From: an uncultured Methylobacter sp.
GTDB lineage: Bacteria > Pseudomonadota > Gammaproteobacteria > Methylococcales > Methylomonadaceae
Assembly (NCBI GenBank): GCA_903832775.1
Contig: CAILCX010000040.1
Coordinates: forward strand, 1-48,898
Direction of reading: 5' to 3'
Length of the DNA: 48,898 bases
This document shows, in pieces, positions 8,762 through 11,865 of the stretch. The translations under genes were made by a program, and so were the position numbers. How positions within the stretch are numbered: the first letter of the stretch is position 1; the number at the start of each line of letters is the position of its first letter. Under the pieces are notes generated by a model that had not been told where the DNA came from, did not search any database, and saw only the letters and a list, made by a program, of their open reading frames with translations.

Positions 8762-8796
8762 AAAAACCCAACCGCCTTGTTGACGGTTGGGTTTTT
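8762..8796 (-). terminator. Strong bidirectional intrinsic terminator
   Basis: A perfect 13-base stem (AAAAACCCAACCG at 8762-8774 with CGGTTGGGTTTTT at 8784-8796) encloses a 9-base loop and has T-rich tails on both strands. It terminates the leftward 540-residue protein gene ending at 8852 and insulates the 158-residue gene further left. Confidence 0.9.
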
Positions 8797-8851: not shown

Positions 8852-10474
8852 TTACATTCTAGCAGCGCCAGAATTCCAGATAGTTGGTACGCGGCAGTTT
8901 TCAATTGCTGCACTTGGAGTTGCACGGCTATATGGGTTAACCGGTCTGGCTGAGTTATATGCACCATTAGCTTCTGGAGCAAACAAACTTGGCACTGCCA
9001 AATATGCACCGTTACCTGCAGTATGAACAAACCCAGTATTAAGAGCTGCCATAACTTCTGGTAAAGCCGCTTTAGCAATAATACCGTCAACAACCGCTTT
9101 TTTATCAGTAGTTAAACCAGCATAATGAGTAACATTGTATTGGAACGTATTTTCAACCCAATCATGGTAAGTACCATTAACAACGTTAGCCAAAGTTGGC
9201 GCTACACCATCAACTTTAACAAATTCAAAGTTCGCGCTTGATTTTTCCAGAGATTGGATACCCACTGCCCAACGAGCACCACCAGTTACAGCAGCGCCAT
9301 TAGCGTCACCTGTTGAACCGGTTTTCCAGTAGTTGGTAAATGCACTAGCTGATTTTTGAGTTGCTGTATTCAATGTATCCAAGCAATCAGAAACACCACC
9401 GGAAGTTTCCAGTTCATGAACCATGGCAAAGCCATCACCCTCAGACGAACCTTGATCATGTGCAGGCGCTGTAGATGAAGATGCTTCAGCACAAGGTGAA
9501 TTCAAGAACACGATACCATGTTGTGCTTGAGTACCTGAACCATCAACACGACGACAAACGTGAACATCAGCCGTAGCAGGTTTATAAGTTGCTGCATTAG
9601 CAACCGTCCAGTCATACAAACCTAAACCAGTAGTGCCCACTTTGATGCTGTTCCAGCTAGTCCATGAACCACTGTGTATTGAAGCGATTTGTGCAGAAGT
9701 CAGGTTAGGTAAACAAGCTTCAGTTTTAAGACCTACTGTACAAGTTCCAGGTAATTGACCAGTCGAAATTTGTGCTGCTTGCAAAGCTTGGAACAATTGC
9801 AAGGTCACTGGCTCACCAAAAACAACAGCTGAAGCACCTTTAACAGTCAAAGCATTTAAATCATCAGCTGTAACTGGTGAGTAGCCAGCAGGCACGTTAT
9901 TGCCACGGAACTGAATAGGATCAACATCTGACATACCAAAGTCAGGTATTGCAGCTGTAAATTGAGTAGCAACAGTACCGAAGGTATCATAAGTACATGC
10001 GGCAGCACCTACTACTGCAGCTACAGGAGGAGTTGCAAGGGGATTAGCCGCTACTGCAGCTGTCGTTTGTGCACAAGTTGCATTACCAGTAATGTTTAAA
10101 AAATTAACCGTAGCATTGCTAATTAATGGTGTTACACCCATCGCAGAACCACCTTCACTGCGTTTGTAAATCAACAAATGACTTTTAGCACCTGCCAAAG
10201 ATGGATTGGTACCGGCTTTTGTACAATAAAATGCATTTTGAGTTTTGCCATCGATAGTATCGTTAAATCTCCAAACTTCCTGATTAGTGTCACAAAAACG
10301 GTCAGCAGTCGGTACGGCAGAAGATGTAAGCAACTTGTTTACATAATCCAGGGAAGCTGAAGCGCCTGATAAATAAATAACTGTAGTGTCGCTTGCGATA
10401 GTTGGTAAAACAGCGTGGGCATTACCTGCCATTAATACAGCTGTAATTGCTGCACCTAATATTTTCTTTTTCAT
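8852..10474 (-). CDS. Secreted protein, possibly with a periplasmic-binding-protein-like fold
   Basis: This 540-residue protein has a clear signal peptide (MKKKILGAAITAV... ending AHA, cleavage near residue 22). The mature part begins with an IYLSGASASLDY segment and has about ten cysteines, suggesting disulfides. The segment YKRSEGGSAMG recalls the phosphate-binding loop region of PstS-like binding proteins, but the similarity is weak and the protein is longer than usual. It lies 38 bases downstream of the VPLPA-CTERM gene on the same strand and is probably cotranscribed with it, so it may share control by the structured leader. An AAGAGAATC site precedes ATG 10474. The product is not confidently identified. 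Confidence 0.75.
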   Translation of the reverse strand: MKKKILGAAITAVLMAGNAHAVLPTIASDTTVIYLSGASASLDYVNKLLTSSAVPTADRFCDTNQEVWRFNDTIDGKTQNAFYCTKAGTNPSLAGAKSHLLIYKRSEGGSAMGVTPLISNATVNFLNITGNATCAQTTAAVAANPLATPPVAAVVGAAACTYDTFGTVATQFTAAIPDFGMSDVDPIQFRGNNVPAGYSPVTADDLNALTVKGASAVVFGEPVTLQLFQALQAAQISTGQLPGTCTVGLKTEACLPNLTSAQIASIHSGSWTSWNSIKVGTTGLGLYDWTVANAATYKPATADVHVCRRVDGSGTQAQHGIVFLNSPCAEASSSTAPAHDQGSSEGDGFAMVHELETSGGVSDCLDTLNTATQKSASAFTNYWKTGSTGDANGAAVTGGARWAVGIQSLEKSSANFEFVKVDGVAPTLANVVNGTYHDWVENTFQYNVTHYAGLTTDKKAVVDGIIAKAALPEVMAALNTGFVHTAGNGAYLAVPSLFAPEANGAYNSARPVNPYSRATPSAAIENCRVPTIWNSGAARM

Positions 10475-10512: not shown

Positions 10513-11286
10513 TTAGATTGCAGCTGATTTACGACGGTTCAAACGCAACACACCCATTAAGCCTGCGCCAAACATCCAAACAGCAGCTGGTAATGGAACT
10601 TGTGAAACTTGTGAAATAGTAAACGTATTTCCAATCAATGACACAGTTCCAATGTTCGCACCACCAACAACAGCAGAAACAACATTTTCATAATACAAAT
10701 TGCCACTCAAGCCATAAGCAATAGCAGCACTTGCATTACCTAAACCACCAAACAGGTTTGTTGGAACATTTGTACTACCATTAGCTGTAGCCCATTGACC
10801 TGTACCTGAAGTAGCGGTATCAAGAACTAATTTGCTCACATTCAGAGCAGTATTAACCGTCGCACCAACGTTAATCCTACCAGCTTGCAATGCAATATTA
10901 TTGCCTGCAGTAGTTAAAAGAGGGGCTGAGGCAGCCAATGGTGCTGAAACAGCATCACTGGAAAAAACAACTTTAGCGCCGTTACCGCCAACTACAGCAA
11001 ACTTGGTATCATTGGCAGCAAATGATCCGCCAGTAAAAGTAGTCCAGTTAGCATCGCTTAAAGTAAGACTGAAGTTAGTTCCAGCAGCAGCATTTGCAAT
11101 CAATGTTGCAACTGTTACGCCCAGATCAAGATCATAAGTTAAACCATTTGTATGGTCATAAACTTGCATAAATGCTTCAGCAGTAGTGCCTGTTGCTGCA
11201 GTAGCTGCGTTAATGCTAGCATTAGCCGCGCCAGTTCCAGCAGCCAATAAAGCTACTGCTAATAAAGATTTTGAAAGATTTTTCAT
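10513..11286 (-). CDS. VPLPA-CTERM sorting-domain secreted protein
   Basis: This 257-residue protein has an N-terminal signal peptide (MKNLSKSLLAVALLAAG... ending ANA) and a C-terminal tripartite sorting signal. The signal consists of VPLPAAVWMFGAG, a short hydrophobic helix, then basic RLNRRK. This is the VPLPA variant of PEP-CTERM, processed by an exosortase/archaeosortase-type enzyme that is not in this window. The body is Ala/Thr/Asn/Gly-rich and low in charge, typical of exported surface or matrix proteins. Its AAGG ribosome binding site, 7 bases before ATG, is caught in a stem with the end of an upstream structured leader. Confidence 0.85.
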   Translation of the reverse strand: MKNLSKSLLAVALLAAGTGAANASINAATAATGTTAEAFMQVYDHTNGLTYDLDLGVTVATLIANAAAGTNFSLTLSDANWTTFTGGSFAANDTKFAVVGGNGAKVVFSSDAVSAPLAASAPLLTTAGNNIALQAGRINVGATVNTALNVSKLVLDTATSGTGQWATANGSTNVPTNLFGGLGNASAAIAYGLSGNLYYENVVSAVVGGANIGTVSLIGNTFTISQVSQVPLPAAVWMFGAGLMGVLRLNRRKSAAI

Positions 11287-11293
11287 TTTATTG

Positions 11294-11331
11294 CCTTATG
11301 TTTTAAAAATTAAAAAAGTATTTACATAAGG
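11294..11331 (-). promoter_or_regulatory. Shine-Dalgarno-sequestering stem
   Basis: In the transcript, CCUUAUGU (complement of 11324-11331) pairs perfectly with ACAUAAGG (complement of 11294-11301) across an AU-rich loop. The second arm contains the AAGG ribosome binding site of the VPLPA-CTERM gene. The first arm begins exactly where the candidate aptamer ends, the arrangement expected of a translational riboswitch expression platform. Confidence 0.6.
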
Positions 11332-11413
11332 TGATAGACCAGCCATCTTGCTTGTTTAAACTCAAGATCTGTGACTTTCCGTCCCCGCTTCACAACGGGT
11401 TTGGCTTTTACAC
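11330..11413 (-). promoter_or_regulatory. Structured leader resembling a c-di-GMP-I (GEMM-I) riboswitch
   Basis: Read on the minus strand, the leader contains GCCAAACC and then a 6-bp hairpin (11384-11399) capped by a GUGA GNRA tetraloop. GGGACGGAAAGUCAC follows, then a second stem (AUCUUG with CAAGAU plus CAG with CUG, 11340-11371) and a GAUGGCUGGUCU closing segment. This order mirrors c-di-GMP-I aptamers: GGCAAACC, tetraloop hairpin, GGGACGCAAAGC, long stem, GCCGGGUU. Several consensus bases differ and the outer P1 is weak (GUG with CAC), so ligand identity is uncertain; it could be a diverged relative or another RNA class. It ends about 45 bases before the VPLPA-CTERM start. Confidence 0.45.
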
Positions 11414-11676
11414 GCTTTTAATTATCTTACATCCCTTACACTATCTAACAGCTTGACAGTGCTGCGCCCCGCTACCATTTTTTTATAGTATGTCTCCATT
11501 TCCCTCACACTACTCCTGCGCTCCTTTCATTTTGTGACACTAAAAATTAAATAAAGCCATCCTGATGCTTTTTTCCAGTGTCGCCGATATGTGCTTCCTG
11601 CTTTTCCTGACTCGGCTGGCATCCGTTTTGGATGCCATCAATTTGTCAGTATTGTGCCATAACGAATTGAAGCGTA

Positions 11677-11865
11677 GGTTACAGGTCGGTTACAGCTTAG
11701 TTACATTATCGGGTCAATTATTACAGCCAACCTATTTTGAAGGAGACCGCTCAAAATCAGGCCGTCCAACCAAAATAGAATGGATACTTGTATTTCAGCA
11801 TATTTTGCAGCTTTGAAATGTTACAGTTTGATGAATTGTAGGCGTTGTTATCAAACTGTAACATT
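11677..11865 (+). promoter_or_regulatory. Phased TTACA array and 16-bp inverted repeat upstream of an RHH-like gene
   Basis: TTACA elements occur at 11679, 11690 and 11701, exactly 11 bases apart, with another at 11721. A perfect 16-base inverted repeat follows: AATGTTACAGTTTGAT at 11817-11832 with ATCAAACTGTAACATT at 11850-11865. A degenerate half-site, ACGGTAACT, lies at 11881. The element ends about 65 bases before ATG 11931. Helically phased direct repeats plus a palindrome of the same core are typical operators for ribbon-helix-helix regulators, so autoregulation is inferred. Confidence 0.6.

Follow-up and report, generated by a model that had tools for sequence, protein, structure and literature searches.

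A class-I c-di-GMP aptamer and a predicted Shine–Dalgarno hairpin in the composite leader of a VPLPA-CTERM-like gene of Methylobacter

The gene pair and its class-I aptamer

The window (the whole stretch of DNA that was analysed, 48,898 nucleotides) carries on its minus strand two adjacent genes preceded by a long leader. The first gene (10513–11286) encodes a 257-residue protein that resembles secreted VPLPA-CTERM surface proteins: its profile matches lie below the cut-offs (TIGR03370, 19.6 bits compared with a curated cut-off of 25.35; PF07589, 19.5 bits, also below its cut-off), and VPLPAAVWMFGAGLMGVLRLNRRKSAAI can be read directly at its C-terminus, where the motif, a hydrophobic stretch and a basic tail are all present (by eye). 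The second gene (8852–10474) encodes a 540-residue protein with a signal-like N-terminus, which matches no Pfam family up to an E-value of 1 and gives weak matches to PstS families. Its AlphaFold model (mean pLDDT 86.4) was compared with the PDB using Foldseek, and all 32 matches at E ≤ 0.001 are phosphate-binding proteins (best E-value 1.8e-8); the best PstS match has a TM-score of 0.75 by target length and 0.36 by query length. From this model, the protein is predicted to have a PstS-like phosphate-binding fold. The genes are separated by 38 nt, in which the terminator scan gave no terminator-like site; it places a terminator-like hairpin 3′ of the second gene (8762–8796, minus strand). The CTERM gene and the second gene are found together in 13 of the 13 loci tested and probably form an operon kept in relatives. 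A first-pass annotation of this DNA had suggested that control might extend to the 540-residue protein downstream, which indeed belongs to the same conserved gene pair.

A single RNA match was obtained in the whole 48.9 kb window using cmscan at the gathering threshold, namely RF01051 (c-di-GMP-I) at 11330–11415 on the minus strand, with 57.4 bits for a cut-off of 35 and an E-value of 1e-8; no T-box was matched in the window at this threshold. The elements named in the first-pass annotation were all found in their places when the leader was read. Along the minus strand, GCCAAACC is followed by a 6 bp stem with a GUGA cap (a GNRA loop, on P2), GGGACGGAAAGUCAC, a second stem with a 2 nt GG bulge, GAUGGCUGGUCU and then CCUUAUGU. 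The 5′ strand of P1, GUG (11411–11413), has CAC (11333–11331) as its partner, according to the sequence and to the P1 brackets of the RF03167 alignment. The folding energy of the segment 11270–11415 is −30.5 kcal/mol, a value equalled by five of 200 dinucleotide shuffles. The annotation had left the choice between a diverged GEMM-I and a new related class. The covariance search upholds the c-di-GMP-I aptamer, and the RF01051 cut-off is passed so comfortably that a new riboswitch class is ruled out: judged by its sequence, this is an ordinary class-I aptamer, which matches the covariance model over its whole length. Membership of RF03167 (c-di-GMP-I-GGC), which belongs to the same clan, was likewise rejected, since the window aptamer scores 54.7 bits for a cut-off of 59 and carries A at position 47, where RF03167 has G; some orthologous leaders do exceed this cut-off.

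The window aptamer has G at model position 11 and A at model position 38, which we take to be G20 and A47 in Vc2 numbering, with position 92 assigned in the same way. It differs from RF01051 by a C–G instead of a G–C pair at 21–46, by U at position 92, where C is usual although not strictly defining for the family, and by the Shine–Dalgarno (SD) hairpin that directly follows P1. Position 92 (11334, minus strand), usually a ligand-contacting C, was read as U in the RF03167 alignment and in our alignment of related leaders (A1). This U92 is found in 23 of the 26 related leaders of A1 and in three of the 28 further class-I aptamers in the genus that had loci (34 were listed), and it could alter affinity or ligand choice. 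We may wonder at this stage whether the natural ligand is 3′,3′-cGAMP or another dinucleotide. The frequency of U92 in the related leaders and its rarity elsewhere in the genus would fit such a change, which is nonetheless improbable: natural C92U variants still bind c-di-GMP. The cGAMP riboswitches (GEMM-Ib) have A at position 20, and the window aptamer, with G there, was rejected as a member. The literature bears on both sides of this question. The Vc2 residues G21, C46, A47 and C92 are named in PMC9049102 in agreement with the numbering used here; G20 and C92 are presented as central to ligand binding, and G20A/C92U, a double mutant, is stated to bind c-di-AMP (PMC9049102; also PMC7288161), which speaks for another ligand. 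Against it, the mutant that binds cGAMP is altered at G20 (G20A; PMC7288161), the very residue kept in the window, and A47 is described as conserved but G20 and C92 as less so (PMC9049102).

The Shine–Dalgarno hairpin and the second platform in relatives

Directly 3′ of P1, the anti-SD arm CCUUAUGU (11331–11324, minus strand) is fully complementary over eight pairs to ACAUAAGG (11301–11294), which contains the AAGG Shine–Dalgarno site; the end of AAGG is 7 nt from the ATG at 11286. The anti-SD arm begins with a C that doubles as the final base of the P1 3′ strand, and the overlap of the hairpin with P1 amounts to this one nucleotide. When the preceding stretch was mononucleotide-shuffled 200,000 times, a perfect 8 nt complement of the SD arm arose in 231 cases. 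In alignment A1, which comprises 26 related leaders (22 distinct rows; 31 leaders minus six near-duplicates, plus L102), 95.5% of the cells of the eight-pair helix are paired, compared with 29–54% after sliding by 1–3 columns, and this paired fraction was reached by 34 of 500 shuffles. The changes in the helix are mostly wobble; both sides change in two pairs, a result reached by 26 of 500 shuffles, and the covariation support for the hairpin is modest. RNAalifold retains five of the eight pairs in the short alignment A1 and none of the eight in the longer, 15-row leader alignment A2. The alignment of the leaders shows that a predicted SD-containing hairpin directly 3′ of P1 is conserved among them, in line with the masking of the ribosome-binding site put forward in the first-pass annotation. 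No terminator was found by the scan of the window leader. The leaders of a different CTERM protein (L130 and L131) have the same leader motif (see below) and aptamer, with SD arms that are shortened yet complementary (by eye).

RF01051 is matched five times in the source genome, in 12 of the 23 genomes of the genus and in 125 of the 237 genomes of the family (123 above the cut-off). Homologues of the CTERM protein, some of them weak or partial, occupy 61 places in 52 of these 237 genomes. We scanned 58 of the 61 places for aptamers (cmscan) and obtained a class-I-clan call immediately upstream of the homologue at 38 of them: above a family cut-off at 29 of 40 places (18/20, 8/10 and 3/10) and, at a laxer E-value setting, at nine of 18 places, where the call is to RF03167 but under its cut-off of 59. 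At three further places the aptamer core is recognizable by sequence with a long insertion, and 20 of the 58 gave no aptamer call. Two leaders of the same gene pair without a call (L148 and L150) resemble a degenerate aptamer (by eye).

Among named genomes, a scan using the window protein alone found no relative, and a scan using an alignment of the second protein gave 61 loci. A recognized CTERM gene precedes the second gene in 33 of them; 23 of these 33 have the aptamer, and 13 have both the aptamer and the upstream motif. The aptamer-bearing loci include Methylobacter, Methylomonas, Methylicorpusculum and Methylomicrobium records and a Porticoccus bin. When the 23 platforms were read, 15 had an anti-SD arm (two of them seen in part), six had a hairpin followed by a U-run and two were unclear (L146, which gave no terminator, and L179, with a doubtful long hairpin). 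In the terminator type (those six leaders and L171, with L170/L171 and L180/L183 as near-identical pairs), the stem before the U-run begins inside the aptamer and its 5′ arm takes 9–14 aptamer nucleotides. The aptamer and the terminator would be mutually exclusive, which implies ON logic. The platform hairpins in L107 and L114 were absent from the output of the simple terminator scan, which covers loops of up to 8 nt. One orthologous gene set thus has two platforms, an SD hairpin or a terminator, behind the same aptamer, which offers a direct comparison of sign and mechanism in methanotrophs. A second leader type is also seen in the genus (L011, L014, L015, L019, L021 and L026), with a terminator-like hairpin that reuses the 3′ strand of the aptamer before no clear gene (by eye).

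Mechanism and sign of control

We propose, with a probability of about 0.7, that the c-di-GMP-I switch acts on the translation of the first gene through the SD hairpin, the sign of control being left open. Without ligand, the P1 3′ strand would be free and the SD hairpin at its longest, giving low translation. Binding of c-di-GMP would close P1 (GUG/CAC), which would capture the shared C of the anti-SD arm; the loss of this C would free the outer G of the SD site, weaken the hairpin and raise translation. For a translational switch of this kind we lean towards such an ON sign, mainly by analogy with the orthologous leaders whose aptamer-controlled terminator has ON logic. The source genome contains 37 GGDEF matches, 36 of them above the cut-off.

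Folding calculations were made in which P1 was forced in 19 leaders (in L056 it could not be forced). The unpaired probability of the SD Gs rises from 0.00–0.06 to 0.13–0.52 in 18 of the 19, and only from 0.01 to 0.02 in L034. The SD hairpin nevertheless keeps a probability of 0.77–1.00 in 16 of the 19 leaders, falling to 0.10–0.12 only in L034, L039 and L051, which implies that ligand binding need not open it. In contrast to the terminator type, the leaders of the SD-hairpin type show no mutual exclusion of aptamer and platform.

This coexistence leaves room for two other accounts. Because P1 and the SD hairpin adjoin with one common base and are compatible in the folding models, a ligand-closed P1 could stack end to end on the hairpin and lock it, c-di-GMP then repressing translation as in an OFF switch. 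We regard this as unlikely, since the terminator-type orthologous leaders of the same gene imply ON and since none of the 19 leaders became less exposed at the SD site when P1 was forced. Somewhat less probable again is a genuine aptamer next to an SD hairpin that serves as a constitutive brake or provides a site for another regulator, with the ligand mainly affecting transcript elongation or stability. The slight overlap of the hairpin with the aptamer, its prediction with and without P1 in most leaders (including the long window leader) and the existence of further conserved parts in the leader would all suit this account; against it, no anti-SD arm was seen by eye in the six leaders that retain the upstream motif but lack the aptamer.

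Vc1, upstream of Vibrio cholerae gbpA, resembles the window leader in combining a class-I aptamer, a long leader, an attachment protein and a positive response to c-di-GMP, but the text available describes it as having no apparent terminator or anti-SD sequence (PMC4744006), whereas the window has a conserved anti-SD hairpin; the mechanism that follows ligand binding in Vc1 and Vc2 is called unclear or unknown there. In Methylophaga nitratireducenticrescens GP59, c-di-GMP riboswitches lie beside one VPLPA-CTERM and three PEP-CTERM genes, and transcripts were higher in biofilm for ten of 11 riboswitches, the exception being one PEP-CTERM switch (PMC12530212). The available text of that study differs from the present case in describing no platform, leader conservation or phosphate-binding partner (PMC12530212). 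Our searches of a limited library of papers, which were not aimed at the motif itself, found no account of the leader, of its pair of platforms or of the motif upstream. The aptamer is thus known, as are c-di-GMP riboswitches next to VPLPA/PEP-CTERM genes; what makes the present system a variant is its composite leader together with the platform change.

The upstream leader and the other class-I switches

The aptamer appears to lie within a longer conserved leader made up, in order from the promoter, of CTGTAAC-N4-CTGTAAC repeats, a GGA-rich stretch, UGGUAGCGGGG and a hairpin. Through this leader, c-di-GMP would be connected both with a conserved leader motif and with a gene pair, one of whose products resembles phosphate-binding proteins. 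The PHO-box-like direct repeat was located by a pattern search at 11678–11695 (minus strand), the only match to CTGTMAYNNNNCTGTMAY in the source genome; a two-repeat PHO-box pattern with a loose second repeat is found in 14 of 31 leaders. The source genome has no second occurrence of the stricter pattern, so its other phosphate genes lend no support to this reading. A weak −10-like CACAAT preceded by TGG (11651–11656, minus strand) is a candidate from the sequence and the leader alignment; the sigma-70 scan gave no site there. A sigma-54 site at TGGTAGC was considered and rejected, as it has no fixed second element (by eye).

The GGA-rich stretch (11416–11615, minus strand) contains nine GGA and no TCC in 200 nt. 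In 25 related leaders the mean is 10.1 GGA per 200 nt, compared with 1.7 in 27 other class-I leaders (a control set that leaves out L018), which is about sixfold, and with a dinucleotide expectation of 6.8. These could possibly be CsrA sites or ribosome standby sites; for CsrA, the sole hints are the GGA density and one csrA gene.

Further 3′, the near-invariant motif AUGGUAGCGGGG (11467–11478, minus strand) was identified in the leader alignment. Its 11-mer UGGUAGCGGGG is exact in 21 of 25 leaders, has one mismatch in three (L033, L039 and L051) and is absent from L034; six orthologous leaders that gave no aptamer call retain the motif as well. Between it and the aptamer, a hairpin is predicted at 11438–11462 (minus strand), as it is in relatives despite the varying sequence (17 leaders with and six without the aptamer were folded). 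A short upstream ORF starting from AUGGUAGCGGGG was rejected, since the frame after GGG differs among orthologues and the AUG is not always kept (by eye). The leader motif is also present in L134 (839–915).

UGGUAGCGGGG occurs three times in all in the source genome and is perfectly complementary to the 3′-terminal 11 nt of its tRNA-Met(CAT). A highly speculative reading, to which we give very little credence, is that it pairs with the 3′ end of the initiator tRNA-fMet, from the acceptor 3′ strand through the discriminator to CCA. Under a phosphate-responsive promoter, the leader would then sense free or uncharged initiator tRNA together with c-di-GMP, as a riboswitch joined to a novel sort of T-box-like device. 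ARAGORN labels the tRNA only as tRNA-Met(cat), and the term ‘initiator’ rests on the tRNA sequence; among the matches listed, tRNA-Met has U72, save for A72 in three genomes of one genus. As this tRNA hardly varies, covariation is uninformative on the pairing. In L059 and L060 (genomes G126 and G127; the mismatched leader was dropped as a near-duplicate before the count of 25), the motif has a one-base mismatch to the genome's own, unchanged tRNA, which counts against the idea.

The other four class-I aptamers of the source genome (L001, L003, L004 and L005) precede genes for a phytase-like protein, an Lcl_C/PEP-CTERM protein, a protein without a family match and a TPS protein, respectively, as determined from searches with the first 300 residues or fewer of each product. 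They form a mixed set of phosphate and surface genes, and the protein without a family match has a GNHE motif (by eye). In the named loci, 15 further aptamers lie downstream; of the ten that were read, every one is followed by a gene for a protein resembling the TPS/filamentous-haemagglutinin protein of L005 (by eye).
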